A stretch of 64,000 bases of DNA, taken from positions 186,001-250,000 of the forward strand of contig NZ_CP107797.1 in NCBI RefSeq assembly GCF_036345995.1. Direction: 5' to 3'. The DNA comes from Streptomyces sp. NBC_00557 (GTDB lineage Bacteria; Actinomycetota; Actinomycetes; Streptomycetales; Streptomycetaceae). Position 1 is the first letter of the stretch. Every line of letters starts with the position of its first letter. Shown one piece after another: positions 1,354 through 46,510 of the stretch. Made by a program: the position numbers and the translations under genes. A model generated the notes under the pieces. The model searched no databases. It saw nothing but the letters and a program-made list of their open reading frames with translations, and had not been told where the DNA came from.

Positions 1354-2370
<1,017 letters not shown>

Positions 2371-13364: not shown

Positions 13365-13629
13365 GGCGGGCGGTTCTCCCCCCGGCTCCGCCGTGCCCCG
13401 ACTCCGCAGCCGGGTGTCCGCATGACCCGGCTGCGGAGGCGGGGGCTTCCCGCCGTCCACCGACCCTGCGGCGCGGCCGTGCAGACAGCCTGCTGCTCAC
13501 TCGCTGTCAGCCGGAACGCGCCGGCAGGCCGGAACGAGACCGGACAGCGGCCCGGCGGCTCATCGGGGCGCACCTCACCGGAACTCGTCTTGTCCACACA
13601 CCACTTGAAGGATCAAAGGAGTCTTTTCA

Positions 13630-13841
13630 TGAACACCGACCAGCTCGACGCCGAGACCGCGGAACTGCTGCCGGGACGTGAGGCGCTCGGCAAGTTCTCG
13701 TTCAACTTCACCAAGATGACCACCGTCACGAAGAAAGTGGCACACGTGGACGCCCACAACGAGTCGGCCGCGCTGAACCAGTGCTCGCCGTACGCGGTCG
13801 CCCAGTCCGAGGCCGCGCAGAGCATCAGCGTGCAGCAGTAA
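13630..13841 (+). CDS. 70-residue peptide A2, candidate RiPP precursor
   Basis: Paralogue of peptide A1, with 53 of 70 residues identical by my count. ATG 13630 follows an AAAGGAG box. Conserved blocks are AETAELLPGREALGKFSF, KKVAHVDAHNES and a C-terminus of QSISVQQ. It has a single Cys at residue 52, in NQCSPYAVAQS, where A1 has Asp. There is no signal peptide or membrane helix. Downstream come a terminator and then a membrane M50 protease with an RRE-like N-terminus, which suggests that the peptide is recognised and cleaved by it. The type of modification, if any, is not apparent: no radical SAM, YcaO, LanM or similar enzyme is nearby. Confidence 0.72.
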
Positions 13842-17512: not shown

Positions 17513-18763
17513 TCAGGTGCGGGCCGCGTCCAAGGCTTGCAAGGGGTGCTCGGCCGCGGCGACCACCCGGCGGACGTTCCACAGCGCCAGCAGGCCCGCC
17601 AGGGCCAGCAGCGAGGCCTGCACGTCCAGGGCCAAGGGGAGGGTGATCCGGGCCACGAGAGTGCCGGCGCAGATCAGGCCCAGGGCCTGGGAGCCGTCGA
17701 AGATGCTCTGCAGGGTGGCAAGGACGCGGCCTCGGGTCGCATCCTCCGTGTGCATCTGGGTCAGTGACATCCGGCCCGCGAAGGCCGCGATACCGGGCGC
17801 GCCCAGGACGGCGAACAGGCCGACGAAGAAGGGCATGGAGGTGGTGAGATACGCGCTGTTCCAGGTCGCCGCGGTCATCACGGAGAACACCACCAGGGAC
17901 CAGCCGAGCAGCCGCCCGGGTTCGATCCGCCGGGCCAGCGTGCCGACGAGCGCCCCGCCGGCCATGCCGCCGATGGCCTGCACACCGCGCAGCAGACCGG
18001 TGTCGCTCTCGCCGCCGCCCAGCCGGTCGGTCACGAACACGACGAACAGGACCGCGAAGAGCCCCTGCGCCAAGCCCATCAGAGCCACCGTCACCACCAT
18101 GGCCCGCAGCCCCGCCCGGTTCCTGATCTCCCGCAGCCCCTCCAGGTAGGCGCGCCAGGCCGTCTGGTCGACCGGGACTTTCCGGGAGACCCCGAACGGC
18201 CGCAGCAGCAGCAGGATCGCCAGCAGGAAGGAGGCGCCGTCGGCGGCGAGGATGCCGGGCAGGCCGGACCAGGCCAGCACGAATCCGCCGACGGACGCGC
18301 CGAACAGCCGGGCCAGGTTGCCGTTCAGGCTGACCAGCCCGTTGGCGGCCGGTACGTCCTCGCGTTCGACGAGGGAGGGCAGGAGAGCGTACTTGGCGGG
18401 CTGGAACACGGTGGCCAGCGCGGCCTGCACGGCGGTGACGATGTTGACGACGAACACCTCGCCGGGCCCCTGCACGGCGAGCAGCGGCAGCAGTGCTGCC
18501 GTCTGCGCGAGGCTCACCCCGATCATCGTTCGGCGCCTGTCCCAGCGGTCGGCCAGCACCCCCGCCACCGGAGAGAGCAGCAGGGCCGGCAGCAGTTCCA
18601 CGAGAAAGTTCGTCGCGGTCGCGCCCACCGAACCGGTGAGCTCGTAGACGTACACCGGCATGGCGACCATGAACATCCAGTCGCCGCTCTCCGAAATGAA
18701 TCCGGAAATCCACAGGCGACGGAATCCCGGATGTGCCAATGGGCCCTTCCGCAGGAATTTCAT
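17513..18763 (-). CDS. MFS transporter, probable exporter of the cluster
   Basis: A 416-residue MFS protein of the MFS_3 (enterobactin exporter-like) type with about 12 hydrophobic helices. The N-terminus (MKFLRKGPLAHPGFRRLWISGFISESGDWMF) and the cytoplasmic loop LADRWDRRRTM are typical of that group. ATG 18763 has a GAGAGGGAC box; the frame continues upstream to 18898 without a better start. It is divergent from the S9 peptidase, and a StrR-type operator lies between them. It probably exports the product of the left half of the cluster. Confidence 0.82.
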   Translation of the reverse strand: MKFLRKGPLAHPGFRRLWISGFISESGDWMFMVAMPVYVYELTGSVGATATNFLVELLPALLLSPVAGVLADRWDRRRTMIGVSLAQTAALLPLLAVQGPGEVFVVNIVTAVQAALATVFQPAKYALLPSLVEREDVPAANGLVSLNGNLARLFGASVGGFVLAWSGLPGILAADGASFLLAILLLLRPFGVSRKVPVDQTAWRAYLEGLREIRNRAGLRAMVVTVALMGLAQGLFAVLFVVFVTDRLGGGESDTGLLRGVQAIGGMAGGALVGTLARRIEPGRLLGWSLVVFSVMTAATWNSAYLTTSMPFFVGLFAVLGAPGIAAFAGRMSLTQMHTEDATRGRVLATLQSIFDGSQALGLICAGTLVARITLPLALDVQASLLALAGLLALWNVRRVVAAAEHPLQALDAART

Positions 18764-18892
18764 GAGTCCCTCTCGCCCTTCCGTCTTTGCGTGCCGCAAG
18801 GCTCCCAGGAGAGTGTCCTTTGTCAAACGCCGCTGAGCAACCCGCCCTGCGCGGACGGGTGTTGAGCTGCGCGGACTCGCTGGTCCGGTCGC

Positions 18893-18921
18893 GTTCAAGT
18901 GGCTCCGGGCCGCAGTTGGAC
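18893..18921. promoter_or_regulatory. StrR-type operator candidate, S9 peptidase/MFS divergent region
   Basis: GTTCAAGTG-N11-CAGTTGGAC matches 14 of 18 defined positions of the StrR-family site (GTTCGActG-N11-CAgTcGAAC), with the exact 11-bp spacing. It lies 42 bp upstream of the -35 box of the S9 peptidase promoter and could act on both divergent genes. A second, better match is at 25073-25101. Confidence 0.6.
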
Positions 18922-19000: not shown

Positions 19001-20941
19001 ATGCTTCCCACCGACATCAATCTGCTTCCCGTTCTCGGCCGTCCCACTTTGTCGGGCGACGGCCGGTACGCGGTCGTGAGTGTTTTCCGGCCGGATGTGG
19101 ACGCCGACGAGAACACCAGCGAATTGTGGGTGGCTCGGACGGACGGGTCCGCGCCGGCCCGGCGCCTCACCCAGGGCTCGAACGACGGCGCTCCGGCCTT
19201 CTCGCCCGACGGACGCTGGCTGGCCTTCCTGCGGCCGGGGCCGACCGGGCCCGCGCAGCTGCACCTGCTCCCCATGGAGGGCGGCGAGCCGTTCCGGGTG
19301 ACCGACCTGCCGCTGGGCGCGGGGCAGCCCGTCTGGAGCCCGGACTCGCGCCGGATCGCCTTCGCGGCGCGCGTGCCCGAGCCGGGCCGGTACCTCCCGG
19401 GCGTCCCGCCGCACAAGGAGCGGCCCCGCCGGATCACCACCCTGCGCTACATGTCGGACGGCATCGGCTACACCTTCGACCGGCCGCACCAGATCTTCGT
19501 CACGGATCCGTTCGCCGAGGAACCGGTGACGACGCAGATCACCAGCGGGGAGCACGCCAGTTACGACGTGGCCTGGAGCCCCGACGGGCAGTTGCTGACG
19601 TTCGTGTCGGGCCGGCACGAGACACACGCCGACGACCTGCGCCGGGACATCTGGGTCTGCACCCCGGACGGTGCCGGACTGCGCGCACTGACCGACGGAG
19701 GCCTGGAGCTGGGCTGCCCGCGGTTCTCCGCCGACGGCACGCTGGTGTGTTTCGCGGCTGAGACGCTCGACGAGCACAACCGGGCCACGGGCGCGAACAG
19801 TTACGGCCTGTGGTCGGTGCCCGTCGACGGCTCGGCGCCGCCGCGCCGGCTCACCGACCCGGAGCCGTATCACCTGAGTTTCGCGAGCCAGATGATCGCG
19901 CCCGCCTCCGACGGCGTCTACTTCGCCAACGACCACCGCGGCGAGGTCCACCTCGTCCTCGTGCCCTACGACGGCGGCACGCCGCGGCCCGTCATCACCG
20001 GGCGCCGGCAGGTCAACGGGTACGCGGTCGCCGAGGGCCCGCAGGGGACCACGATCGCCGCGGTGCTCTCCAGCGCCGAGAGCGCGGGCGACCTGGTGGT
20101 GCTGTCCGGCGGCGAGGAGCGGGAACTGACCCCGTTCGGCGCTCAACTGCGGGCCCGCGCAGGCCTGTTGCCGGTGGAGGAGTTCACCGCCAAGACCGAG
20201 GACGGCTATCTGCTGCACGGCTGGACGGTGCGCCCGCCCGGTCCCGGCCCGCATCCGGTGCTGCTGCAGATCAAGGGCGGCCCCTTCACGCAGTGGGGGT
20301 ACACCCTCAACGGCCCGGCGTCCTTCGAGGAGGCCCAGGTCTACGCGAGCGCCGGCTATGCCGTCGTCCTCGGCAATCCGCGCGGCACCTCCGGATACGG
20401 GCAGGCGCACGGCCGGTATGCGGCCGACGACCTGGCGCGCATCACCGCCGGCGACCTGCTGGCGCTGCTGGACACGGCCCTGCAGGCGCCCGACCTGGAC
20501 GAGACGCGGGTCGGGGTGCAGGGCGGCTCGTTCGGCGGCTACATGGCGGCGTGGATGGCCGCGCACCACGGCGAGCGGTTCCGTGCCGCCATGGGCGAAC
20601 GCGGGTGCTACGCGATCGACAGCCACTTCGGCTCCGCCGACGACGGGGTGAACAACTCCATAGCCCTGTACGGCGCGGACCAGGAGAGGTGGGCCGAGAT
20701 CAGCCCGCTCACCCACGCCGACCGGATCAGGATCCCGATGCTGCTCATCCAGTCGGAGGAGGACCGGCACACGCCGATGGAACAGGCCCAGCGGATGTTC
20801 GTGGCCCTGCGCACCCGCGGTGTCCCTGCCGAGATGCTGCTGTTCCCCGGCGAGGGCCACGACATGTCCCGCACCGGCCTGCCCAGCCACCGGGTGGCGC
20901 GGTACGAGGCGATCCTGGAGTGGTGGTCCCGTCACCTGTGA
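19001..20941 (+). CDS. S9-family prolyl oligopeptidase-like serine peptidase
   Basis: A 646-residue two-domain protein. The N-terminal beta-propeller (about residues 15-370) has TolB-like repeats such as PAFSPDGRWLAFLR and PVWSPDSRRIAFAA. The C-terminal alpha/beta-hydrolase domain carries the triad Ser510 (GGSFGG), Asp588 (SEEDRHTP) and His620 (GEGHDM). There is no signal peptide, so it is cytoplasmic. It opens the left half of the cluster, has a promoter with a StrR-type box, and precedes the carbamoyltransferase by 139 bp. It could remove a leader or trim the 27-residue peptide encoded at 25241; alternatively it hydrolyses the product for resistance. Confidence 0.85.
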   Translation: MLPTDINLLPVLGRPTLSGDGRYAVVSVFRPDVDADENTSELWVARTDGSAPARRLTQGSNDGAPAFSPDGRWLAFLRPGPTGPAQLHLLPMEGGEPFRVTDLPLGAGQPVWSPDSRRIAFAARVPEPGRYLPGVPPHKERPRRITTLRYMSDGIGYTFDRPHQIFVTDPFAEEPVTTQITSGEHASYDVAWSPDGQLLTFVSGRHETHADDLRRDIWVCTPDGAGLRALTDGGLELGCPRFSADGTLVCFAAETLDEHNRATGANSYGLWSVPVDGSAPPRRLTDPEPYHLSFASQMIAPASDGVYFANDHRGEVHLVLVPYDGGTPRPVITGRRQVNGYAVAEGPQGTTIAAVLSSAESAGDLVVLSGGEERELTPFGAQLRARAGLLPVEEFTAKTEDGYLLHGWTVRPPGPGPHPVLLQIKGGPFTQWGYTLNGPASFEEAQVYASAGYAVVLGNPRGTSGYGQAHGRYAADDLARITAGDLLALLDTALQAPDLDETRVGVQGGSFGGYMAAWMAAHHGERFRAAMGERGCYAIDSHFGSADDGVNNSIALYGADQERWAEISPLTHADRIRIPMLLIQSEEDRHTPMEQAQRMFVALRTRGVPAEMLLFPGEGHDMSRTGLPSHRVARYEAILEWWSRHL

Positions 20942-21080
20942 CCCGGCCGCCTTCCCCCGGCCCCGGCCGTGCGCCCCGGCGGCGCCGATCGCCGACGCGT
21001 CCGCACGGCGTCCGGGGCCTGCCCAGCTCGTGCATCCAGCGATCCGATCAGGAATACAGGCAGGAATGAGGTAGGCGACG

Positions 21081-23072
21081 GTGACGGATTCCAGCGCCGC
21101 CGAGTACTTTCTCTCGGCATATCTGACCCCGCCGGGCGAACGCTCGGTCATCTCCCCCCGGCACGACCACAACGTCTCCCTGTGGCGGCGCACTGCCGGC
21201 CGCGTGGAACTCGTACGCCACTGGGAACTGGAGCGGATCAGCGGCCAGAAGCACCACGCGTGGCCGCTGTTCACCCCGGAGCGCACCCGGGCGCTGCTCG
21301 ACCGGCTGCTGGCCACGGAGGGGCTGTCGACGGCGGACCTGAGCGCCAGCTGGGGCACGCCGGGGCTGCCGGCCCATGCCCCGGTGCCCGTCCCGTCCGG
21401 CGCCGAGGACCTGCCCGTGCACAGCCTGGCGCACCTGTTCAGCGGGATTCTCATGGACACCCGGGTCTTCCGGGAGGAGAACATCATCGGGATGGCGGTG
21501 GACGCCGCCCCCGACCTGGTCCTGGAGGACCGGCTCCCGCCCTACTACTACGCCGGGTGCGTGTCCGTGAGGGGGCGGATCACCTTCGCCCCCGTGGAGT
21601 CGCCGGCCCCGCTCTACCACGCGGCGGACCGCCTGTTCGGCAAGGAGCCGGGCACTTTGATGGCGCTGGCGTCGGCCTGTGACACCGCGATCGCCTACGA
21701 CGCCGCCGCCGAGGTCGCCGAACTGGAGCTGTTCGGCGGCCGGGTGCAGCCCTGGGCGGCCTCCTTCGGCCTGGTGAAGAAGGTCATCGCCGAGGCGGAG
21801 CGGCAGCTGGCGGGGGACCGCCGGCCGGACTCCCGGTTCACCGCGGAGGAGAACCTGCAGAGCGCGGTGATGAAGGTGGTCCAGGAGTGCTGCGAGCGGA
21901 TCGTGATCCGCAACGTCGAGAAGCTCGCCGAGCTCGGCGGGGTCCGCACCGAGGACTGTCATCTGTCCATCAGCGGCGGCTTCGGGCTGAACGTCCAGGC
22001 CAACACCCTGGTTCTGGACCGCTTCGGGTTCCGCGGCCTGCTCACGCCGCCGTGCGCGAACGACTCCGGGGTGGGCCTCGGCATGGGGCTGCTGGGCCTG
22101 TACGGCTCGGGCGCCCTGGACGGCGCGGAGCTGCGCATCGACAGCGCCTACTACGGCAACGACCTGGCGGACGTGGACGAGGCGATCACCGAGTTCGCGC
22201 CGTGGATCGAGGAGGTCTCGGAGTTCTCCGCCGACCGGTTCGTGCAGGACCTCGCCGACGGGGTGGTGGTGTGGGCGGACGGCGCGGCGGAGATGGGGCC
22301 GCGCGCGCTCGGGCACCGCAGCCTGCTCGGGGATCCCCGCTCGGAGAAGGTCAAGGACCTGCTGAACGAGTACAAGCAGCGGCAGTGGTGGCGGCCGGTC
22401 GCGCCGATCGTGCTCGCCGAACACGCCCGGGACTGGTTCGAGCAGGAGCGCCCCTCCCCGTACATGCTGGAGGCGGCGGTCGTGCGCCCCGAGCAGCGGG
22501 ACAAGGTGCCGGCCATCCTGCACCTGGACGGCACGGCCCGGCACCAGACCCTCACCGAGCAGGACGATCCCCTGCTGTACCGGGCGATCGACGCGTTCCG
22601 CGCGGCGACCGGCGTGCCGATCGTGTGCAACACGTCCCTGAACGACAAGGGCGAACCGATCGTCGACACCGCCGCGCAGGCGCTGACCTTCTGCGTGCGC
22701 AAGGGCATCCGGATCGCCTATCTCGGGGGCCGGCGGGTGGCCCTGCGCGGCCCGGAGGAGGCGGGGCTGCCGGTGCCGGACCGGCCGCGTCCCCGCGCGC
22801 AGGAACTGTTCGCCGGGCAGGAGGCGGACCGGGACGCGATCTGGAACTCCTGGCTGGAGCGCGGCTACACGGAGGCCGCCCTGCTGCTGATGACGGGCAC
22901 TCCGCAACTCCTCGCCGACCCGGAGACGTTCACCCCGGGCCGGGTACGGCTGCTCGCGGAGCGGGTGGCCTCCCGGGACCCCGGTTTCGCCCAGGGACTC
23001 GAGGAGTTCCTCCGGGACAACGGTCCGGGTGCCGCCTTCACCGTGGGGTCCCCGCCGCGCCGTACGGCCTGA
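21081..23072 (+). CDS. Carbamoyltransferase (NodU/CmcH/TobZ family)
   Basis: A 663-residue enzyme of the family that transfers a carbamoyl group from carbamoyl phosphate, via carbamoyl-AMP, to a hydroxyl (rarely amino) group. The N-terminal Kae1-like domain has HDHNVSLWRR (His28) and the metal-binding HSLAH (His114, His118). The C-terminal domain has the block EMGPRALGHRSLLGDPR (from Met405) and KQRQWWRPVAPIVL, as in TobZ. GTG 21081 follows GAGGTAGG. It heads a run with the JmjC oxygenase and the DinB-like gene, ended by a 25-bp hairpin. A natural reading is carbamoylation of a hydroxyl made by one of the two oxygenases. The substrate is not known. Confidence 0.85.
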   Translation: MTDSSAAEYFLSAYLTPPGERSVISPRHDHNVSLWRRTAGRVELVRHWELERISGQKHHAWPLFTPERTRALLDRLLATEGLSTADLSASWGTPGLPAHAPVPVPSGAEDLPVHSLAHLFSGILMDTRVFREENIIGMAVDAAPDLVLEDRLPPYYYAGCVSVRGRITFAPVESPAPLYHAADRLFGKEPGTLMALASACDTAIAYDAAAEVAELELFGGRVQPWAASFGLVKKVIAEAERQLAGDRRPDSRFTAEENLQSAVMKVVQECCERIVIRNVEKLAELGGVRTEDCHLSISGGFGLNVQANTLVLDRFGFRGLLTPPCANDSGVGLGMGLLGLYGSGALDGAELRIDSAYYGNDLADVDEAITEFAPWIEEVSEFSADRFVQDLADGVVVWADGAAEMGPRALGHRSLLGDPRSEKVKDLLNEYKQRQWWRPVAPIVLAEHARDWFEQERPSPYMLEAAVVRPEQRDKVPAILHLDGTARHQTLTEQDDPLLYRAIDAFRAATGVPIVCNTSLNDKGEPIVDTAAQALTFCVRKGIRIAYLGGRRVALRGPEEAGLPVPDRPRPRAQELFAGQEADRDAIWNSWLERGYTEAALLLMTGTPQLLADPETFTPGRVRLLAERVASRDPGFAQGLEEFLRDNGPGAAFTVGSPPRRTA

Positions 23073-23176
23073 CGGTCCGTCACCGCGGACGGGCCCGAGC
23101 GCAGTCGGCCCCGAGCCGTGGCGCCGGCCGGCCGCCCTCCAGGCATCCGACACGCACCTAACAGATGGGACAGGGC

Positions 23177-24361
23177 ATGACGAACTACACCTTCGCCGAC
23201 CTCGTAGGGGACGAAAAGGCCTTCTTCGCCGAGTACTTCAACAAGAAGCCGATGCTGCGCAAGGGCGCGCTGAAGGACCCCCAGGGGGTGCTGTCGCTGC
23301 GCAGGCTGGACGAGCTGGTCCAGCTGGAGATCATCCGGCCGCCCTATCTGCGGGTCAACCTCAAGGGCCAGGGCGTGCCCGAGAAGGGCTTCACCAGGAC
23401 GATCACCGTGCAGGGCACCGACGTGACCGACACGGTCGACGCCCAGAAGGTGTACGAGCTGTTCCGGGCCGGCGCCACCATCGTCTGGAGCTCCCTGAAC
23501 CACGTCGACTCCTCGCTGCGCCGCTTCACCCAGGTGATCAGCGACCGGTTCGGCGCCCGCACCGACTGCGTGGCCTTCCTGACGCCGGCCGGCAAGCAGG
23601 GCTTCTCCCCGCACCACGACCCGGTCGACCTGTTCATCGTGCAGACCGAGGGCACCAAGCGGTGGCGGCTGTGGGACCCGCCGCAGGTGCGCCAGGCGCA
23701 GGCCGCGTCCTACACGGCCGAGCAGCTCGGCGAGCCGGTGATCGACGTGCTGCTGGAGCCGGGGGACGTGCTCTACCTGCCCTACGACACCCCGCACGCG
23801 GCCGCGGCCGAGGACCTCGCCTCCGTCCACCTTTCGATCATGATCCGGCCGCGGATGTGGAAGGACCTGCTGCGGCAGACCTTCGACGAGCTCACCGCGG
23901 ACCCGGAGTTCAACGAGTTCCCCTACATCGGTGAATCCAGGGACGCCTCGGTGGAGAATGTCTTCAGGGAGAAGGTGCGCGCCCTCACGGCCCGTTTCGA
24001 GGCTGTGGAACCGTCCGCAGAACTGGACCGGCTGGCGGAGCTCGGCCGCCGGATGCCCGGAAATTCCATGGGCAACACCTTCCGTACGACGGCGGACCTC
24101 GACCGGCTGGAGGCCGGCTCGGCGCTCCGCCTCACCGACGCCGACGTGGAATTCGGCGCGAACCAGGACGGGCGCGTCCAGATGACGGTCAACGGTCACA
24201 AGGTCGCCATTCCCGCGCCCGTGGCCGAAACCCTCGCCGGAATGAGCGCCGGCGACCATGTCATCGCCTCCGACATCTTCCCCGGCGCGGACCCGGCGCG
24301 GGCGGCGAACACGGCTCGGGGCCTGGCGCGGCTCGGTCTGCTGGAGCTCGTGGCGGCATAG
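23177..24361 (+). CDS. JmjC/cupin-type Fe(II)/2-oxoglutarate oxygenase 1
   Basis: A 394-residue protein of the ROXA/YcfD type (Cupin_4), a family of ribosomal-protein and peptide hydroxylases. The iron ligands are His146-x-Asp148 (SPHHDPVDLFIVQTEG) and His207 (TPHAAAAED). A C-terminal dimerisation/winged-helix-like part follows (GHKVAIPAPVAETLAGM). ATG 23177 is preferred because it matches the paralogue at 25496; an ATG at 23165 in frame is possible. Homologues hydroxylate Arg or His side chains of proteins, so a peptide substrate is likely, here perhaps the 27-residue peptide. It lies between the carbamoyltransferase and the DinB-like gene. Confidence 0.85.
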   Translation: MTNYTFADLVGDEKAFFAEYFNKKPMLRKGALKDPQGVLSLRRLDELVQLEIIRPPYLRVNLKGQGVPEKGFTRTITVQGTDVTDTVDAQKVYELFRAGATIVWSSLNHVDSSLRRFTQVISDRFGARTDCVAFLTPAGKQGFSPHHDPVDLFIVQTEGTKRWRLWDPPQVRQAQAASYTAEQLGEPVIDVLLEPGDVLYLPYDTPHAAAAEDLASVHLSIMIRPRMWKDLLRQTFDELTADPEFNEFPYIGESRDASVENVFREKVRALTARFEAVEPSAELDRLAELGRRMPGNSMGNTFRTTADLDRLEAGSALRLTDADVEFGANQDGRVQMTVNGHKVAIPAPVAETLAGMSAGDHVIASDIFPGADPARAANTARGLARLGLLELVAA

Positions 24362-24483
24362 TACGCATGGAACGCCGTCCGCGGACACGGCAGTTGTGCG
24401 GCCTCACCAGCAGCTGAGCCGCACAGCTGCCGCCGGCGCGCGACGGCGGCGACGACGACACGACAAGCACCGCGAGGAACACA

Positions 24484-24990
24484 GTGACGACCGAACGCGC
24501 GGCCATTCCCGCGACCGCCGACGAGCGCGAGATGCTCCGCGGCTATCTCGACTTCCACCGGGCGACCCTCGCCATGAAGTGCGAGGGCCTCACCGACGAC
24601 GAACTGCGCCGGCAGTCGATGCCGCCCTCGACGCTCTCGCTGCTCGGCCTGGTGCGGCACATGGCCGAAGTGGAGCGGTCCTGGTTCCGCAGGATCGTGG
24701 CCGGCGAGGACGTCCCGCTGGTCTGGTCGGACAGTTTCGACTTCCAGGTCGCCTACGACGTGCGCGGCGCGGACCGGCAGGAGGCCTTCGACGCCTGGCG
24801 GGCGGAGATCGAGCACGCGCGCCGCATCGAGGCGGCGGTCGAGTCCCTGGACGTCCTGGCGTACGACCGCCGCAAGAACCAGACGGTCTCGCTGCGCATG
24901 GTCATGCTCCACATGATCCACGAGTACGCCAGGCACAACGGACACGCCGACTTCCTGCGCGAGGGCATCGACGGAACCGTCGGCGTCTGA
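24484..24990 (+). CDS. DinB/DUF664-family protein
   Basis: A 168-residue four-helix-bundle protein. Its helices are MLRGYLDFHRATLAMKCEGL, LSLLGLVRHMAEVERSWFRRI, a WRAEIEHARRIEAAVESL segment and VMLHMIHEYARHNGHADFLREGIDG. The three expected metal-ligand histidines are present (RHMAE, MIHEYARHNGH). DinB proteins include thiol-dependent transferases (mycothiol or bacillithiol S-transferases) and maleylpyruvate isomerase-like enzymes. GTG 24484 has GAGGAA upstream. It closes the first transcription unit of the left half. Its role here is unknown. Confidence 0.8.
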   Translation: MTTERAAIPATADEREMLRGYLDFHRATLAMKCEGLTDDELRRQSMPPSTLSLLGLVRHMAEVERSWFRRIVAGEDVPLVWSDSFDFQVAYDVRGADRQEAFDAWRAEIEHARRIEAAVESLDVLAYDRRKNQTVSLRMVMLHMIHEYARHNGHADFLREGIDGTVGV

Positions 24991-24996
24991 CCCGCA

Positions 24997-25051
24997 CAGC
25001 GAAGAGCCGTTTTTCTCCGCGCGGTACGCGGAGAAAAACGGCTCTTCGCTG
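24997..25051 (+). terminator. Very strong intrinsic terminator (25-bp perfect stem)
   Basis: CAGCGAAGAGCC...CTCCGCG at 24997-25021 pairs without mismatch with 25027-25051 around a 5-nt CGGTA loop, followed by GTTTCC. It isolates the carbamoyltransferase - oxygenase - DinB unit from the peptide gene, which therefore needs its own promoter. Confidence 0.9.
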
Positions 25052-25072
25052 TTTCCGGGAGAGTGCCGGAGT

Positions 25073-25101
25073 GTTCGACCGTTCCCTGTCGCCAGTTGAA
25101 C
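25073..25101 (+). promoter_or_regulatory. StrR-type operator candidate upstream of the 27-codon peptide gene
   Basis: GTTCGACCG-N11-CAGTTGAAC matches 16 of 18 defined positions of the StrR-family consensus and has the exact 11-bp spacer. It lies between the 25-bp terminator and the peptide gene, about 140 bp before its start. The only StrR-type regulator in the window is at 32676-33860, in the other half of the cluster. Confidence 0.72.
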
Positions 25102-25240
25102 ACCCTGAATTCTGGTCTCTCAATTCGCTTCGAAAAGAAAGGAGTTGAACATCGGCAGGCGTTGCGTCGCCCCCCGGAAATGGGCCACTATTACATCACC
25201 ACCGGGAAAAGCCCGGAGGAACCGAGAAAAGGAGTTCAAA

Positions 25241-25324
25241 ATGGAGAACACCTTCGAGGACATCGAGTTCATCGAGACCTCCGCCGACCTGATGGCCACC
25301 TCGTACTACGTCAACATCCAGTAA
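25241..25324 (+). CDS. 27-residue peptide, candidate RiPP precursor
   Basis: ATG 25241 follows a strong AAAAGGAG box and the frame ends at TAA 25324. The first 16 residues are acidic (two Asp and four Glu, with Phe and Ile: MENTFEDIEFIE...), like a leader. The last residues are ATSYYVNIQ, carrying Thr, Ser, two Tyr and Asn that could be hydroxylated or carbamoylated. The gene has its own StrR-type box and is bracketed by two strong terminators, with a JmjC oxygenase on each side. No known RiPP class fits: there is no YcaO, LanB/C/M or radical SAM enzyme. An alternative is a regulatory leader peptide, but the downstream terminator has no alternative pairing that I can see. Confidence 0.65.
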   Translation: MENTFEDIEFIETSADLMATSYYVNIQ

Positions 25325-25434
25325 TACCCGGTACGGCCACAGGGGCGGCGGCCGAACGACGCCGCCCCTTCGGCCCGGGGTGGTGCGAGTCCGGTGCGCG
25401 ACGCCGCGGCCGTACCCACCCGACCACATGCGCG

Positions 25435-25465
25435 AGCGGGCCGAGAAGTCTCTTCTCGGCCCGCT
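25435..25465 (+). terminator. Intrinsic terminator between the peptide gene and the second oxygenase
   Basis: A perfect 14-bp stem (AGCGGGCCGAGAAG/CTTCTCGGCCCGCT) with a TCT loop. It would make the peptide mRNA short and abundant relative to the downstream enzymes. Confidence 0.75.
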
Positions 25466-25495
25466 GGAGCGAGTGCCCGTGGGAGGCGGAGAACC

Positions 25496-26740
25496 GTGGG
25501 AACCACCGCTGCCGACTGGACCTTCGCGTCCCTGGTCGGCGACACCGAGAGCTTCTTTGCACAGCACTTCGACCGGCAGCCGCTGCTGCGCCGCGGAGCG
25601 CTCGCGGACCGGGTCCGCGACCTGATCACGGTGGACCGGCTCGACGACGTCATCGCCCTGCAGGTCGTCCCGCCGGCCTACGTGCGCCTCGCCAGGGACG
25701 GCCAGGGCCTGTCCAGCAAGGCCTACACCCGCACCACGGGCGACCACGCGACGGGGCTCGCCGAAACCGTCGTACCGGAGCGGGTGTACGAACTGTTCCG
25801 CTCCGGCGCGACCGTCACCTGGAACCACCTGGAGCACCTGCTGCCCTCGGTCCGGCACCTGGTCGACCTCTTCGCCGACACCTTCGCCTGCCCCGCCGAG
25901 GTCGTGGGCTTCCTGACACCGGCCGGACACGACGGGTACGCCCCGCACCACGACCCGGTCGACGTCTTCGTCGTCCAGATCGAGGGGACCAAGGACTGGC
26001 AGGTCTGGCAGCCGCCCGCCGACCGCCGCGGGGACAGCGCCCGCTACCCCGCCGACCGGCTCGGCGAGCCCGCGCTGCGGACCACGCTGCACCCGGGCGA
26101 CGTGCTCTACCTGCCCCACGGCACGCCGCATGCCGCGGCCGCCCGCGAGCAGGTCTCCCTGCATCTGTCGGTCACCGTCGCCCCGCGTCGCTGGCGCGAC
26201 CTGCTCGCCGAAACGGTCGCGGAGCTGCTGCGCGACGAGGCGTTCCACGCGGTGCCGTTCCTCGGCGGCAACCCGTCCGGCGCGGTGGACGGCGCGGCGG
26301 ACGGCGGTCGGCGCAGCCGGATCGCCGACCGCTACCGCGAGAAGGTCGCCGACCTGTGCGCCCGCCTCACCGCGCTGGCGCCCGAGGACGAAACGGCACG
26401 GCTCGCCGCGGTCGGCCGGGCGCAGGCGGGTGTGGACCGGCCGCGGGAGTTCGCCCGGCTCGCCAGGCTGGACGCCCTCACCGCCGAGGCGCGGGTGCGA
26501 CGCACCGGGACCCCCGTCGAACTCGGGCCGAGCCGCGACGGCAGGACCCCCCTGCTGGTCAACGGCCACCGGCTGGCCGTGCCCGACGCCGTCGCCGACA
26601 CGCTCCGCGCCCTGGACCGCGGCGGTTCGCTGCGGGCCGGCGGCTTCCTCGCCGGAGCGCCCGAGGACCGGTCGGTGCGCGCCGCCCGGCAACTCGCCCG
26701 CCTCGGTGTCCTGCAGGCCGCGGACCGGGCGGAGGACTGA
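25496..26740 (+). CDS. JmjC/cupin-type Fe(II)/2-oxoglutarate oxygenase 2
   Basis: A 414-residue paralogue of the enzyme at 23177. The shared N-terminus (WTFASLVGDTESFFAQHFDRQPLLRRGAL) fixes the GTG start at 25496, which has GGAGGCGGAG just before it. Iron ligands are His151-x-Asp153 (PHHDPVDVFVVQIEG) and His212 (GTPHAAAARE). Compared with the first enzyme it has an insert after the double-stranded beta-helix (GGNPSGAVDGAADGGRR). The pair suggests two successive or alternative hydroxylations of a peptide or carrier-bound substrate. It is followed after 5 bp by the M13 peptidase gene. Confidence 0.85.
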   Translation: MGTTAADWTFASLVGDTESFFAQHFDRQPLLRRGALADRVRDLITVDRLDDVIALQVVPPAYVRLARDGQGLSSKAYTRTTGDHATGLAETVVPERVYELFRSGATVTWNHLEHLLPSVRHLVDLFADTFACPAEVVGFLTPAGHDGYAPHHDPVDVFVVQIEGTKDWQVWQPPADRRGDSARYPADRLGEPALRTTLHPGDVLYLPHGTPHAAAAREQVSLHLSVTVAPRRWRDLLAETVAELLRDEAFHAVPFLGGNPSGAVDGAADGGRRSRIADRYREKVADLCARLTALAPEDETARLAAVGRAQAGVDRPREFARLARLDALTAEARVRRTGTPVELGPSRDGRTPLLVNGHRLAVPDAVADTLRALDRGGSLRAGGFLAGAPEDRSVRAARQLARLGVLQAADRAED

Positions 26741-26745
26741 GCGCC

Positions 26746-28839
26746 GTGCGCGCCACGACCGAGGCGACCGCTCCCGCTTCCGGCCCGGAGGCGAACGGCG
26801 CGGGGCCACGCCTCGGCGACCTCGTCGTCGACCCCTCGGCGCGGGCGCAGGACGACTTCCACCGGTACGTCAACGGGCTCTGGTCGGACGCGTTCGTCCT
26901 TCCGGAGCACCAGGCCGAGGCGACGCTGCTGTCGCTGCTGGCCGACGAGGTCGAGGACGACGTGGCCCGTCTCATCCGGCGGGCGGCGGCCGGCGCCGGC
27001 GCCGGCGACCCCGCCACCCGGGCCATGGCCGATCTGTACACGAGCTTCATGGACGAGGAGACCATCGAGGCGCGCGGAGCGACACCGCTCGCCGCTGACC
27101 TCGCCCTTGTCCGCAGCGCGCCCGACCGCCGCGCGCTGGCCGCCGTCCTCGGCCGGCTGCAGGCGCAGGGGGTGCGCGGCGCGCTGGAGCCGTCCGTCTC
27201 CGTGGACCCGGCCGACGGCACCCGCTACGCCCTGACGCTGACCGCGTCCGGCCTGGGCCTGCCGCGCCCCGAACTGTACCTCGCGGACGGCGCCGGACCA
27301 CTGCTGCGCCGCTACGCCCGGCACGTGAGCGCCATGCTCGCCCACGCGGGCCTGCCGGCCCCGGCCGAAGCCGCCGAGCACATCGTCCGCGCCGAGACGG
27401 CCCTGGCCCGCCTCCACATGTGCGCCCACGAGGCCGGCGCGCCCACCGGCGCCACCGCCTTCGCATCCGCTGCGCACGACGGCCCGCCCGCGACCGCCTC
27501 CCCGGCCGCCGGCTGCGCGGCCCCGGACACCGCCTCGCCGGTCCGCTGCCTCGTCGGTGAACTCGCCCTGCGCGACCAGGGGTTCGCGTGGGGGGAGTGG
27601 CTGCGGGAACTGGGGGCGGCGGCGTCGCAGGCGGTCGTCCGCGTCCGGCCGGGCGCCTTCGTGACGGCGTTCGAAGAGTGGTGGGCCGGCGCCGACCTGC
27701 GGTCGCTGCGCCTGTGGCTCGCCTGGCGGTACGTGCACGAGATGGCGCCCTTCGGGCCGCGCGCGGTCTTCGCCGAGCACTTCCGCTGGTACTGGCGGGA
27801 ACTCACCGGCGCCCGACAGCCCTGGCCGCGCCGCCGGCGGGCCAGCGCCTTCGTGCAGACGGCCCTCGGGGACGTCGTCGGAGAGCGCTACCTGCGCGAG
27901 CACGTGGCCCCCGGCACGCTGGCCGCCGCACGGCAGCTGGTGGACCACCTCGTCGGCACCTACCGCCGCTGCCTGGAGCAGGCGCGCTGGATGCGGCCGG
28001 CCACCCGGCGCGCCGCACTGGCCAAGCTCGACGCCATGCGCTTCGACATCGGCGCCCCGACGGCCCCCGTCGGCTGCGCCGGTCTGCGCACCGACCCCGC
28101 CGACCTGGTGGGCAACGTCAAGCGGTCCCGCGCCTGGCACATCGCCCGCGAACTCGGCCGCCTGGGCGGGCCGGTGGACCGCGCGGACTGGAAAGTGCCG
28201 CCGCAGTCGGTCACCGCCTACTACCGGCACAGCCTGAACCAGGTGGTGATCCCCGCCGCCCTGCTGCGCCCGCCGGTGTTCGACCCCGCCGGCGACACCG
28301 CTCGCAACCTCGCCGTGCTGGGGTCCATCGTGTGCCACGAGATGTCGCACGCCTTCGACGACCGTGGCTCCCGCTACGACGGGCACGGCCGGCTGCGTTC
28401 CTGGTGGGCGCCCGAGGACCGGGCCGAGTTCGAGCGCCGCAGCGCCCTGCTGGTGCGGCAGTACGACGGATACGCCCCCGGCGGGGCCGGCGGCGCCCGG
28501 GTCAGCGGAGCACGCACCCTCGGGGAGAACATCGCCGACATCACCGGTCTGGCAGTCGCCCAGCAGGCCTTCTGCGCCCACCTCGACGCGCTCGGCGTCA
28601 CCGGCGAGCCCCGCCGGCGACGGCTGCGGCGGTTCTTCATGCTGTGGGCCACCATGTGGCGGGCCGAACGCACCCCGGGCCGGACGCTGGAGCGCCTCGC
28701 ACACGACTCCCACGCGCCGCCGGAGTTCCGCTGCAACGGCGTCCTCGGCCACATCCCCGCCTTCTACGAGGCCTTCGGCGTCACCGAGACGGACCGTCTG
28801 CACATCCCGCCCGAAGCCCGGTTCTCACTGCTGGGCTGA
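26746..28839 (+). CDS. M13-family zinc metallopeptidase (neprilysin/PepO-like)
   Basis: A 697-residue protein with the M13 layout. It shows the N-terminal block DFHRYVNGLWSD, the zinc motif HEMSH (His531, Glu532, His535) and the third ligand in GENIADITG (Glu594). There is no signal peptide, as usual for bacterial PepO-type members. GTG 26746 lies 5 bp after the oxygenase stop, so they are one unit. M13 enzymes cut peptides of up to about 40 residues on the amino side of hydrophobic residues. The 27-residue peptide would be a fitting substrate (leader removal), but this is inferred. Confidence 0.88.
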   Translation: MRATTEATAPASGPEANGAGPRLGDLVVDPSARAQDDFHRYVNGLWSDAFVLPEHQAEATLLSLLADEVEDDVARLIRRAAAGAGAGDPATRAMADLYTSFMDEETIEARGATPLAADLALVRSAPDRRALAAVLGRLQAQGVRGALEPSVSVDPADGTRYALTLTASGLGLPRPELYLADGAGPLLRRYARHVSAMLAHAGLPAPAEAAEHIVRAETALARLHMCAHEAGAPTGATAFASAAHDGPPATASPAAGCAAPDTASPVRCLVGELALRDQGFAWGEWLRELGAAASQAVVRVRPGAFVTAFEEWWAGADLRSLRLWLAWRYVHEMAPFGPRAVFAEHFRWYWRELTGARQPWPRRRRASAFVQTALGDVVGERYLREHVAPGTLAAARQLVDHLVGTYRRCLEQARWMRPATRRAALAKLDAMRFDIGAPTAPVGCAGLRTDPADLVGNVKRSRAWHIARELGRLGGPVDRADWKVPPQSVTAYYRHSLNQVVIPAALLRPPVFDPAGDTARNLAVLGSIVCHEMSHAFDDRGSRYDGHGRLRSWWAPEDRAEFERRSALLVRQYDGYAPGGAGGARVSGARTLGENIADITGLAVAQQAFCAHLDALGVTGEPRRRRLRRFFMLWATMWRAERTPGRTLERLAHDSHAPPEFRCNGVLGHIPAFYEAFGVTETDRLHIPPEARFSLLG

Positions 28840-28870
28840 GCCCTGCTCACCCGAAGGGAGCGAAGGACAC

Positions 28871-30166
28871 ATGAGTCACACAGTCGTCGAACGGGCCGGT
28901 TCACTGGCCCTCGACATCGACGCCGAGCGGCTGCTGCGCCGCATCAGGGAGCTGGGGCGGATCGGCGCCGATCCGGTCGGCGGCGGCATCACCCGTACCG
29001 GGTTCAGCGCCGCCGACCGCGAGGCCCGGGCCTACCTGATGGACGAGGCCCGGGCCGCCGGCCTGTTCCCGGCCGTGGACGCCGCGGGGAACATAGTCGT
29101 CAGGCGGCGGCCCACCGACCGGCCCACCGCCGACGGGCCGGTGGTGATGATGGGCTCGCACCTGGACACCGTGGTCGACGGCGGACGCCTGGACGGCGCC
29201 TACGGTGTGCTCGCCGCCCTGGAGGTCCTGCAGACGGTGGTCGAGTCAGGCGCCCGACTGCGCCGGGACTGCGTGGCGGTGGCCTTCGCCAACGAGGAGG
29301 GCGCGCTCTTCCCCCAGCCCTTCTGGGGCTCCATGGCCGTCGCCGGCCGGATCGAGAACCTGCCCCGGGAGCCGCGCGACCACCAGGGACGGCCGCTGCG
29401 CGAGGCGCTGCGCCTGGCCGGCGGCGACCTCGACGCCCTGGGCAGCGCCTGCTGGCCGAAGGGCTCGGTGTCGGCGTACCTGGAACTCCACGTGGAGCAG
29501 GGCCCGGTGCTGGAGCGCGGCGGCAGCAGGATCGGCGTGGTGGACGCGATCACCGGACGGATCGTGCTCACCCTGGAGATCCGCGGCAGGGCCGGCCACT
29601 CCGGGACGACCCCGATGGAGGGCCGCCGGGACGCGCTGTGCGCGGCGGCGCGCGTGGTGCTGGCGGCGGAGCACATCGCCGGGCGGCGCGACCTGTGCCG
29701 GGTGGCCACCGTGGGCCGCCTCGACCCCTACCCGAACACGCCGAACACCATCGCCGGCGCGGTGCGGACGACCGTGGACCTGCGCGACACCGACGTATGG
29801 CGGATGGCAGACGCGGAGGCGGCGCTGCGCGCGATGCTGGACGACATCGCCGCAGCCACCGGCACCGAGATCGAGGTGGTGGCCGAGACCCGGTCCGATC
29901 CGGTCTCCACGGACGCACGGCTGCGCGAGGCGATCGCGCTGAGCGCGGACGAGCTCGCCCTGCCATACGAGGAGCTGCCCAGCGGGGCCGGGCACGACGC
30001 CCAGTTCGTGGCCGGCCTCGCGCCGATCGGCATGATCTTCGTGCCGAGCATCGGCGGCGTCAGCCATGTGCCGCAGGAGGACACCGCGGCGGAGGACCTC
30101 GTGGCAGGGGCGCGGGTGCTGCTGCGGACCGTGCTGCGCACCACGGAACGGGAGGAGCAGCTGTGA
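28871..30166 (+). CDS. M20-type amidohydrolase (hydantoinase/N-carbamoyl-amino-acid hydrolase family)
   Basis: A 431-residue enzyme with the dinuclear zinc motifs SHLDTVVDGG, ANEEG, HVEQGPVLE, GAGHDAQ and the distal GGVSHVPQED. This set is typical of the Zn-dependent amidase group (N-carbamoyl-L-amino acid hydrolase, allantoate amidohydrolase, beta-ureidopropionase). ATG 28871 follows a GAAGGAGCGAAGG box. Its presence in a cluster with a carbamoyltransferase is notable: it may remove an N-carbamoyl group or cleave an amide of an intermediate. The direction and substrate cannot be read from sequence. Its stop overlaps the LOG gene start. Confidence 0.85.
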   Translation: MSHTVVERAGSLALDIDAERLLRRIRELGRIGADPVGGGITRTGFSAADREARAYLMDEARAAGLFPAVDAAGNIVVRRRPTDRPTADGPVVMMGSHLDTVVDGGRLDGAYGVLAALEVLQTVVESGARLRRDCVAVAFANEEGALFPQPFWGSMAVAGRIENLPREPRDHQGRPLREALRLAGGDLDALGSACWPKGSVSAYLELHVEQGPVLERGGSRIGVVDAITGRIVLTLEIRGRAGHSGTTPMEGRRDALCAAARVVLAAEHIAGRRDLCRVATVGRLDPYPNTPNTIAGAVRTTVDLRDTDVWRMADAEAALRAMLDDIAAATGTEIEVVAETRSDPVSTDARLREAIALSADELALPYEELPSGAGHDAQFVAGLAPIGMIFVPSIGGVSHVPQEDTAAEDLVAGARVLLRTVLRTTEREEQL

Positions 30167-30747
30167 ACGCGCCGGGAAAGAGCCGTCGGATCGCCGTCTT
30201 CTGCGGAGCCCGCCCGGGCGTCCGGGCGGAACACCTGGACTTCGCCGGCGCCTTCGGCGCCGCGCTCGCCCGGCACGGTCTGGATCTGGTCTACGGCGCC
30301 GGCGGGGTGGGCGTCATGCGGGCCGTCGCCGACGGGGTGCTGGAGCACGGCGGGGCGGTCACCGGGGTCATCCCGCGCACCCTGCACGAGCGCGAGCGGG
30401 CGGACCGCGCGCCGGGCACCGTCTACCTGGTGCGCGACATGCACGACCGCAAGGCGCTCATGTACCGGCTCGCCTCCGGGTTCGCGGTGCTGCCGGGCGG
30501 CCTGGGCACGCTGGACGAGCTGATGGAGGTGGCCACCTGGAACCAGCTGTCGCTGCTCGACAAGCCGCTGGTGGTGGTCAACCACCGTGGGTTCTACGAC
30601 CCGTTGCTCGCCATGCTGGACCATCTGGTCGCCGAGGGCTTCCTGGCCGCGCGCGAACGCCGGCTGGTGCAGGTCGCCGGGACGGCCGAGGAGGCGCTGT
30701 CCCTGCTGGGGGCCGGCAAGGTGGCGGAACCGGTCGCGGTGGGCTGA
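30163..30747 (+). CDS. LOG-family protein (nucleotide 5'-monophosphate phosphoribohydrolase-like)
   Basis: A 194-residue Rossmann-fold protein. It has AVFCGARPGVRAEH, VYGAGGVGVMRAVADGVLEHGG and the signature PGGLGTLDELMEVATW (PGGxGTxxE) of the LOG/TIGR00730 family, formerly called lysine decarboxylase-like. GTG 30163 overlaps the previous stop (GTGA). LOG proteins release a base from a nucleoside monophosphate, and in several natural-product clusters they act on modified nucleotides. Nothing else here points to a nucleoside product, so the role is open. Confidence 0.85.
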   Translation: MNAPGKSRRIAVFCGARPGVRAEHLDFAGAFGAALARHGLDLVYGAGGVGVMRAVADGVLEHGGAVTGVIPRTLHERERADRAPGTVYLVRDMHDRKALMYRLASGFAVLPGGLGTLDELMEVATWNQLSLLDKPLVVVNHRGFYDPLLAMLDHLVAEGFLAARERRLVQVAGTAEEALSLLGAGKVAEPVAVG

Positions 30748-30774: not shown

Positions 30775-31800
30775 TCATTCCACCGGCGTGTCAAGGAATC
30801 CTTTCTGCACGGCGATCACCCCGGCCTGGAAACGGCTGCGGGCATTCAGGTACGTCATGAGGCTGGACGCGATGCGCCGCGCGGTACGCGGTGACACGCC
30901 GAGTCGCTTGGCGATGGCCTCGTCGGTGTGGCCGAGCGCCAGGAGCCTGAGGGCCTCGGCCTGCTGGCGGGTCAGCCCGCCGGGACGCGGATGGGCGGGT
31001 TCCTCCAGCGGAGCGGCGGACTGCCACACGCTCTCGAACAGAGCGTGCAGCACCGTGATCATTCCCGGTGAGCTCAACTGCACCGCGCCGGCGGCGGTGT
31101 CGTCGGCGTTGGAGGCGATCACGGCGAACTGCCGGTCGTAGATGATCATCCGGTTCGGCAGCGACGGCACGGTGCGCACCTGGCAGCCCTGCTCGATCAG
31201 CCAGCGCGCGTGGTCCACGGTCGCCCGGTCGCTGCGGATGCTGTCCAGGTAGAGGGTGCGCATCCGCACACCGCGCTCGAGCAGTTGCTGGTTGAGCGGA
31301 CGGGAGGCCTTCATGTTCTCCGGCGTTTGCGGACCGCCCGGAGCGAAGGTGAGCAGTTCCCTGGACACTTTGCTGTTGAGCACGGCCAGACGGTCGCGGA
31401 TGGCGTCCAGGCCCCTGAGGTGCGTGATGTCGGCATCCGACTCGGCCTGCCGGCCCACGTCGTAGTCCACGATGAATCTGGCCGCAGCCGCCCGGCTCGC
31501 CTCGAGTCTGCGCTGCTGCTCGGCGAGTTCCGCCTGCTGCTGGGCGATCAGAATTTCCATGCCCAGATGAGGACTCACCGCATGTAATTGGTGAGGATTC
31601 TCCGTGGACGCGCGGACCAGGGCCAGGGCGCTGAGCCTGTCGAGCGCGCCGCGCACGTCATCCTCGGGCAGATCCAGCCACCGGGATATCTCGGCGACTC
31701 CCCGGGGTCTGTTCAACATGGCCCGGTAGACGGATTCAGCCACCGGGTCAAGTCCGAGCGTGTGTAGCATTCCGAGGCGTTCCGGCTCCCTGTCAACCAT
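30775..31800 (-). CDS. LuxR-type regulator with TrmB-like N-terminus
   Basis: A 341-residue regulator. The N-terminal winged helix (LGLDPVAESVYRAMLNRPRGVAEISRWLDLPEDDVRGAL) is TrmB-like. A middle PLD/TrmB-like domain follows (ERGVRMRTLYLDSIRSD, MIIYDRQFAVIASN). The C-terminal LuxR HTH is at about residues 272-330 (LTRQQAEALRLLALGHTDEAIAKRLGVSPRTARRIASSLMTYL). It is convergent with the LOG gene (27 bp apart) and probably controls the cluster together with the StrR-type protein. The start may be ATG 31800 or the internal ATG 31770, which matches the usual family N-terminus. Confidence 0.82.
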   Translation of the reverse strand: MVDREPERLGMLHTLGLDPVAESVYRAMLNRPRGVAEISRWLDLPEDDVRGALDRLSALALVRASTENPHQLHAVSPHLGMEILIAQQQAELAEQQRRLEASRAAAARFIVDYDVGRQAESDADITHLRGLDAIRDRLAVLNSKVSRELLTFAPGGPQTPENMKASRPLNQQLLERGVRMRTLYLDSIRSDRATVDHARWLIEQGCQVRTVPSLPNRMIIYDRQFAVIASNADDTAAGAVQLSSPGMITVLHALFESVWQSAAPLEEPAHPRPGGLTRQQAEALRLLALGHTDEAIAKRLGVSPRTARRIASSLMTYLNARSRFQAGVIAVQKGFLDTPVE

Positions 31801-32008: not shown

Positions 32009-32308
32009 ATGTATCTCGTCCACGTGTCCATCAGGCAGCGCTCTTCCGGTGCGGCGCTGCCGCACGCGGCCGCGGAGCTCATCACCCGCGTCTGCGCGGG
32101 CCGAGGCGGCTTCGAGCACCTCAGCGTGCACGCCGACACGCGTCCCCATCCGGTACTGGGCTTCTACCTGCGGGCCGACTCGCTGGCCGAGGCGGAGGCG
32201 GCGGCCGGCTCGCTGTGGCGCCACGCCGCCTTGTGCGTCGCGCAGTTGAGCGACTGGGAGCTGGTGCGGGCCGAGGTGCCGCTGCTGCGGATCGACACGT
32301 GGCCGTGA
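32009..32308 (+). CDS. Small protein of unknown function
   Basis: A 99-residue protein from ATG 32009, with an alpha/beta pattern (MYLVHVSIRQRSSG, ELITRVCAGRGGFEHLSVHADTRPHPVLGFYLRADSLAEAEAAAGSLW) like a small ferredoxin-like or ACT-type fold. It is divergent from the LuxR gene with a 208-bp AT-richer promoter region. Similar short proteins occur beside natural-product regulators in Streptomyces; the function is unknown. Confidence 0.65.
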   Translation: MYLVHVSIRQRSSGAALPHAAAELITRVCAGRGGFEHLSVHADTRPHPVLGFYLRADSLAEAEAAAGSLWRHAALCVAQLSDWELVRAEVPLLRIDTWP

Positions 32309-32456: not shown

Positions 32457-32630
32457 ATGGTCCGCTCGATTTCTCGCCGTGCCGTCCGGAGTGCAATGGT
32501 GACCGCTGTCTTCCTGGCGACGACCACAGGAATCGCGGCGCACCTCGGCGACCGGCTGCCGGAGAATCAGACGCAGACCAGTGCGGTGGCTGTGGCCAAC
32601 ACGCACGACGACGATCACGGCTGGCAGTAA
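32457..32630 (+). CDS. 57-residue peptide with N-terminal signal or membrane helix
   Basis: ATG 32457 follows AAAGGCAGGAG, and the frame ends TAA 32630. The N-terminus is basic (MVRSISRRAVRSAM), then a hydrophobic stretch (VTAVFLATTTGIAAHL), then a polar tail ending in NTHDDDHGWQ. It looks like an exported or membrane-anchored peptide with a His/Asp-rich tail. It lies 45 bp upstream of the StrR-type regulator gene and may be cotranscribed with it. No homologue is recognised. Confidence 0.6.
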   Translation: MVRSISRRAVRSAMVTAVFLATTTGIAAHLGDRLPENQTQTSAVAVANTHDDDHGWQ

Positions 32631-43724: not shown

Positions 43725-43729
43725 GCGGG

Positions 43730-45025: not shown

Positions 45026-45102
45026 ACACCTTTCGTCGGCACGGAGCCCCACAGTAATCAGCGCCCGCGCCACCTGTCATGAGCAGGAATGGAGTTTCGG
45101 AC

Positions 45103-46473: not shown

Positions 46474-46510
46474 CCGGACAGGCGCAGACAGAGGCGAAAG
46501 GAACCCAGAG

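Follow-up and report, generated by a model that had tools for sequence, protein, structure and literature searches.

The window analyzed here is a stretch of 64,000 nucleotides from Streptomyces sp. NBC_00557, positions 186001 to 250000 of a 343-kb contig (NZ_CP107797.1) in a two-contig, 9.0-Mb Streptomyces-type genome. It contains a locus in which a short, precursor-like peptide, MENTFEDIEFIETSADLMATSYYVNIQ, is encoded together with two JmjC oxygenases, and which is probably a biosynthetic locus of the RiPP type (ribosomally synthesized and posttranslationally modified peptide), with the JmjC oxygenases as the main candidate maturases. The gene order is MFS transporter, S9 peptidase, carbamoyltransferase, JmjC A, mycothiol-S-transferase (MST), peptide, JmjC B, M13 peptidase, M20 protein, and LOG protein; only the transporter lies on the minus strand. 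The peptide gene runs from its ATG at 25241 to a stop codon ending at 25324 and is preceded, within 25202 to 25234, by a predicted small hairpin (25202 to 25216) and the ribosome-binding site AGGAG (25230 to 25234). An initial annotation made by a model from the sequence alone had pointed out a 27-codon gene with a strong ribosome-binding site here, which is confirmed.

JmjC A (23177 to 24361, with an earlier start possible at 23165) is NO66/MINA53-like, and JmjC B lies at 25496 to 26740. Both belong to JmjC_2 (PF08007; 98.1 and 87.8 bits against a cut-off of 22), and their HxD...H iron ligands are intact (HHD, TPH). The initial annotation had placed such an oxygenase on each side of the peptide; the two enzymes and their ligands stand, but the left neighbor is an accessory MST/DinB-type protein (Pfam PF04978; 24484 to 24990). 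Upstream are the MFS transporter, a candidate exporter according to domain scans and the comparison of 15 loci (17513 to 18898), an S9 prolyl-oligopeptidase-type peptidase (19001 to 20941; Pfam and motifs), and an accessory NodU/CmcH-type carbamoyltransferase (21081 to 23072; Pfam and NCBIfam). Downstream of JmjC B follow a PepO-like M13 endopeptidase with an HEMSH motif (26746 to 28839; Pfam and NCBIfam), an M20 protein (28871 to 30166), and a LOG-type protein with a PGGLGTLDE motif (30163 to 30747; TIGR00730). Pfam and NCBIfam thus recover all of the carbamoyltransferase, S9, M13, M20, DinB-type, and LOG proteins that had been listed for this neighborhood; of the three peptidases claimed, two remain, since the M20 protein is a hydantoinase/carbamoylase-family amidohydrolase (TIGR01879, 373 bits against a cut-off of 204). 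Radical-SAM, YcaO, LanC, and MNIO domains were not found by Pfam in the called genes from 17513 to 38139, except the open reading frame (ORF) at 32457, or by NCBIfam in ten of them, in line with the earlier statement that no hallmark enzyme of a known RiPP class is present.

By itself, a short ORF preceded by a ribosome-binding site is unremarkable, because ORFs of 15 to 60 amino acids behind such a site have 71 start positions in the window. What lifts the peptide above chance is its distribution. Among 392 genomes of the genus, the peptide query matched seven, own genome included, and JmjC A and B both exceeded 500 bits in exactly the same seven genomes, in a search whose JmjC alignment contains loci first reached via the peptide. 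GTDB contigs yielded seven loci, four of them new, and four plasmid records, one of which is G083, added to the set. The total is 15 loci in 14 strains of Streptomyces and Kitasatospora, with 21 peptide copies, one to three per locus; a clean ATG start is present in all copies except the two of G061 (19/21). The strains include S. minutiscleroticus, S. coacervatus, S. panaciradicis, S. yangpuensis, S. lavendulae BP39, NBC_00435, NBC_00503 (two loci), Streptomyces ISL-43, NRRL F-2664, and WC-3605, as well as Kitasatospora sp. MAA4, which has one peptide in three copies. A chance ORF is ruled out by this recurrence across genomes. The initial annotation, which had read the locus as RiPP-type, would have dropped this reading had the frame lacked conservation in syntenic loci; the peptide adjoins JmjC genes in 15 loci of 14 strains, which supports the interpretation, and a short encoded precursor kept beside candidate modifying enzymes is what is generally expected of a RiPP.

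Searches of 346 genomes of the phylum and 394 of the class gave, besides the own genome, only matches below 200 bits, which we took as generic JmjC_2 proteins. Relatives of JmjC A and B do include proteins of Micromonospora, Williamsia, and Amycolatopsis. The leader motif was absent from 28 generic JmjC loci (1.5 kb on each side), among which L099 had only an unrelated tail-like match, and two genomes with partial JmjC matches (G096 and G319) had no peptide of this kind. A search with the peptide family listed 25 of 394 genomes, of which four were clear (G000, G171, G061, and G563); the remaining 21, with E values of 0.13 to 0.98 and for the most part covering short stretches within long frames, were discarded as chance matches. 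The peptide is not among the coding sequences in the gene tables of L070, L071, L073, and L074; as PLSDB tables are incomplete, it is likely, though not proven, that annotation has missed the gene.

The peptides are 22 to 29 amino acids long and show a leader/core pattern. Their acidic half reads FDDIEFIET, with DIEFIET nearly fixed, and is followed by a variable tail of the general form AT(S/A)Y(Y/H)xNIQ, which occurs as ATSYYxNIQ, as ATAYHVNIQ, or, at one locus, as ASYYLGIQ. Tail positions 21, 23, and 24 vary, whereas N is present in 20 of the 21 copies and I and Q in all. NBC_00503 encodes a second peptide, MSDIEFVDTAADLVASYYLGIQ, beside a single JmjC. The distant locus G289 has MNLDTDLDMDMDIELIESETDDLITQYVP, in which the leader-like half carries a different tail; it lies 1.2 kb ahead of a JmjC that shares 42% identity with A, and the genes in between read as transposase-like pieces. 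Judging from these sequences, MSDIEFVDTAADLVASYYLGIQ, MNLDTDLDMDMDIELIESETDDLITQYVP, and the main peptides may form a wider precursor family that shares the acidic half as its common element.

Gene content separates a core from a variable set. JmjC A is present in 15/15 loci; JmjC B, M13, LOG, and S9 (the last at ≥65% identity) are each present in 14, and M20 and the regulator described below in 13, a partial regulator match in L074 being identical with the gene counted for L071, because these stretches overlap. The carbamoyltransferase and MST occur in seven loci each, a TPR protein in six, and GatA in five; contig or fetch limits cut L028, L029, L030, L032, and L074, and absences there are soft. 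All seven carbamoyltransferase loci have MST, whose count excludes a distant 50% relative in G083 and a 17%-coverage piece in G208. Relatives of the window MFS transporter (≥69%) are found in 6/15 loci, and another MFS transporter (59 to 100%) in the eight loci without carbamoyltransferase plus L071. At seven of 15 loci, the carbamoyltransferase is ruled out as a core part. It is mutually exclusive with GatA in ten of the 11 loci that have either, both being present only in L071; the two might be alternative self-protection routes, although the loci are few and related. The idea that JmjC B is lost when the tail Asn becomes Gly, raised by L071, was weakened by a second locus with A and B on the same plasmid.

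The JmjC A model (pLDDT 94.2, from an 83-sequence alignment) best matches the histidyl hydroxylases NO66 and MINA53, followed by YcfD and B. subtilis YxbC. According to PMC9994133, both MINA53 and NO66 act on C-3 of His. The alternation of Tyr and His at position 23 would fit an enzyme that beta-hydroxylates aromatic side chains. The C-terminal 99 residues of JmjC A (24062 to 24358), when modelled alone (pLDDT 89.2), give a predicted winged helix of RRE/PqqD-like fold (RRE, RiPP recognition element). It matches the winged helices of MINA53, NO66, and YcfD and also PqqD, McbB, ThcOx, and TruD, among others; TigE, TbtB, the PbtF RRE domain, TbiB1 with leader peptide, and a heterocyclase are among the matches listed. 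Most of these latter proteins carry leader-binding domains. Taken as a set, the modelled matches, singly weak, weakly support an RRE-like role of the domain, and an RRE-like domain in oxygenases would help the RiPP interpretation to the same small degree. A link between JmjC and RRE has been reported before, for fish and algae, whose PF08007 proteins can carry a fused RRE-like fold (passages of PMC12710340). In one Streptomyces, a piece of JmjC A is fused to an aminotransferase-like part (protein P0051), which was set aside because it probably arose by fusion or deletion.

Some loci carry a second copy of GatA, the amidase of GatCAB. Its gene adjoins the cluster in G083, G208, and G012, and a cluster-side GatA is found in five of nine cluster genomes or records, namely, these three, Kitasatospora G563, and the NBC_00503 plasmid record, in which no housekeeping GatA is visible. 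G000, G171, G377, and G061 have a single GatA, away from the cluster. A second copy is thus present in 4/8 whole cluster genomes and in 0/66 Streptomyces without the cluster; in a control draw of 69 Streptomyces, only G012, itself a cluster genome, had two. The cluster copies are 88 to 94% identical to the housekeeping copy of the same strain (four whole genomes), and their catalytic motifs are intact. V184L, F205Y, and T406M occur in 5/5 cluster copies and 0/20 housekeeping copies, and I149V and 417V in 5/5 and in one of 20 each; the signature sites fell from five to three when 12 more housekeeping copies were added, these being the best-scoring loci and not a random sample. Counted by hand, the three sites correspond to Y185, F206, and A404 in S. 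aureus GatA, where Y185 lies seven residues after the nucleophile Ser178. Since the Kitasatospora cluster copy groups in the tree with the housekeeping copy of the same strain (94% identity), the tree requires at least two origins of the cluster copies; a single origin was recovered in 0/200 bootstrap trees. The same changes in separate copies imply convergence or selected gene conversion, and nucleotide windows of GatA showed no clear converted tract. Alongside the cluster GatA stand GatC in NBC_00503 and, by eye, GatC and GatB in Kitasatospora. In sequence, then, the cluster GatA is what looks like a resistant target.

From these observations we propose the following system. The acidic half would serve as a leader that docks on the RRE-like winged helix of the JmjC enzymes. 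These would hydroxylate the tail, most likely at Tyr/His 22-23 and/or Asn 25, given the C-3 hydroxylation of His by NO66 and MINA53. The M13, S9, and M20 enzymes might then release and trim a small product, which the MFS pump would export and which the carbamoyltransferase might cap in seven loci. The product might inhibit the GatA amidase; GatA is proposed as the target because five loci carry a cluster-side copy with parallel substitutions, and on whether the product targets GatA of GatCAB, the tRNA-dependent amidotransferase, we stand about evenly divided. The whole would amount to a new RiPP class: NO66-type JmjC enzymes bearing an RRE would be its core maturases, a hydroxylated, trimmed product of the YYxNIQ tail would block GatA, and some producers would protect themselves with an altered GatA, others perhaps by carbamoylation. 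We offer it tentatively, at slightly less than even confidence.

Other explanations were weighed against this one. The short ORF may encode a regulatory leader peptide (attenuator), with its last codons (Asn, Ile, and Gln) gating transcription past the hairpin and no peptide product. A perfect inverted repeat with 26-nt arms (100%; 24996 to 25052, by repeat search) lies before the peptide unit, and a G+C-rich hairpin (25335 to 25375, by inverted repeat and folding) lies directly 3' of it; these are the two strong terminators of the initial annotation, which hold as strong inverted repeats but are at best putative terminators, since no T-tailed terminator-like site was found in 24950 to 25520. 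In single-sequence folds scored against mononucleotide shuffles, the 60 nt 3' of the ORF reach z ≤ -2 in 20/22 copies (exceptions, L032 and G289) against 7/53 called window genes, this one included, and the 60 nt upstream do so in 14/19 copies; consensus folding of 13 upstream regions found no base pair, and Rfam gave four matches, all under gathering scores. Copies precede TPR, JmjC, or other cluster genes, and terminal Asn and Gln codons would fit sensing of GatCAB-made tRNAs. Against an attenuator stand the missing T-tailed terminator and the absence of a single-codon run. Moreover, the next gene varies between loci, residues are fixed throughout the peptide, including the acidic half and not just the last codons, and G289 pairs a leader-like half with a different tail. 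We therefore consider an attenuator very improbable. Instead of being an antibiotic precursor, the peptide might be processed by the peptidases to act as a signal (pheromone) or as a small subunit that partners the JmjC enzymes or the LuxR/TrmB regulator. The regulator near the cluster in 13/15 loci would agree with this, and an MFS transporter and peptidases would also serve a signal; the cluster-linked altered GatA copies, which point to a toxic product, and the presence of up to three peptide copies (L029) make this unlikely as well.

The GatA copies could also be biosynthetic amidases or passengers, not resistance genes, with the peptide locus unrelated to GatCAB. GatA is found in just 5/15 fetched stretches and not in the window, and the substitutions could alter the substrate. 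The close identity to the housekeeping copies with catalytic motifs kept, the neighboring GatC or GatC and GatB, and the recurrence of identical substitutions in copies of two origins speak for resistance, so that we regard this explanation as rather doubtful, though well within reason. The following caveats apply to our proposal. The RRE-type matches of the C-terminal domain are weak, with unrelated folds interleaved at similar scores; the RRE-like fold is common to ribosomal oxygenases too; and PqqD is not among the families shown for the domain by sequence profile. In the last 23 codons of copies that end in NIQ and have ≥27 residues, 11 DNA forms occur; the amino acid is invariant at 14 of the 23 positions, and at four of these (T, L, A, and T) the codon changes. 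Compared with the window copy, the others differ at 0 to 3 synonymous and 2 to 6 nonsynonymous codons, and this ratio does not argue for selection; the peptide is judged real because it recurs beside the same enzymes, not because of the codon ratio. O-carbamoylation of the product, suggested by the initial annotation from a gene that is indeed at the locus, is at most optional because only 7/15 loci have the carbamoyltransferase. The window's own genome lacks a cluster-side GatA, and the Fisher value for GatA (6e-5) assumes independent genomes, yet G083, G208, and G012 are close.

The indirect Gln/Asn-tRNA pathway, which depends on GatCAB, is used by most bacteria, and GatCAB is called essential in mycobacteria in passages of PMC6160228. 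If our proposal is true, the locus would provide a natural inhibitor of GatCAB aimed at this pathway, through a RiPP route centered on JmjC oxygenases, in loci without a hallmark enzyme by which to find them. JmjC_2 proteins, best known as ribosomal oxygenases, would gain a natural-product role with a built-in leader-binding domain, and the GatA link makes the target testable before the compound is known. Neither such a cluster nor a natural-product GatCAB inhibitor is described in the literature found, in a search outside which subscription papers and preprints lay.

Beyond LOG lie, in order, a LuxR/TrmB-type regulator (30775 to 31800, minus strand; Pfam), a conserved protein of about 100 amino acids (MYLVHV..., 99 residues here; 32009 to 32308, plus strand) without a Pfam family, a small exported-looking protein ending in DDDHGWQ (32457 to 32630, plus strand; from its sequence), and a helix-turn-helix protein whose relatives are annotated as ParB N-terminal domain containing (32676 to 33860, plus strand). 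Proteins with a D(L/H)GWQ end occur in the window and in nine other loci (G377, G171, L028, L070, L072, G083, G208, G012, and G061), and this one may be another small peptide that belongs to the regulatory block. After the block, 35554 to 53387 holds genes resembling polyketide and nonribosomal peptide synthase genes, with a ketosynthase with carrier domain at 35554 and the rest assigned by eye; the stretch is syntenic in G377 as far as fetched, and the ketosynthase had no match in the other 14 locus stretches. Two paralogous 70-amino-acid proteins, at 6127 to 6339 and 13629 to 13841 (both plus strand), begin with MNNDWLEAETAELLPSREALG and MNTDQLDAETAELLPGREALG, have no Pfam family, and look like products of small precursor genes. 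By eye, a glyceraldehyde-3-phosphate dehydrogenase-like protein is encoded at 1354 to 2358 (minus strand), here on the second contig of the genome; extra copies of this enzyme can be self-resistance genes. Beside the G289 locus, L118 encodes a 33-amino-acid ORF, MNLNDIIATFDNDLDAAVAKALGTGTFVACSAE (17784 to 17885, plus strand), with genes after it running into L119 and a 708-amino-acid TfuA/YcaO-like protein (by eye) nearby, perhaps another RiPP locus. Near the NBC_00503 two-JmjC locus, a YcaO-like gene is annotated in L074 (10128 to 12293, minus strand).

Among known systems, pyrroloquinoline quinone (PQQ) and mycofactocin also arise from a short precursor with a conserved aromatic residue that is dismantled by peptidases, with radical-SAM enzymes and PqqD-type partners. 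The locus shares with them the short precursor, the conserved aromatic residue, and the peptidases, and differs in having no radical-SAM enzyme among the proteins scanned. Its oxygenases resemble the ribosomal oxygenases NO66 and MINA53 (JmjC_2, PF08007) in fold, HxD...H ligands, and C-terminal winged helix. Unlike these enzymes, to which identity is about 20%, they form an A/B gene pair in a peptide locus and co-occur with the peptide. In the biphenomycin RiPPs (bip/bpm/pbs), a JmjC or cupin-like hydroxylase (BipG, PbsQ) hydroxylates Orn, as described in passages of PMC12707348 and PMC12257519. Their clusters, as presented there, likewise combine a precursor and several enzymes, including the JmjC/cupin-like hydroxylase, with an MFS exporter and a protease, but they depend on an MNIO and its partner together with a B12 radical-SAM enzyme and an arginase, for which an FRF motif is the target; no domain of these kinds was found in the proteins from 17513 to 38139, the ORF at 32457 excepted, and our peptide is without FRF. 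Passages of PMC12710340 contain no JmjC locus of this make-up, and their sole Streptomyces case is another RRE protein; they place bacterial JmjC homologues in RiPP-like contexts, as we find here.

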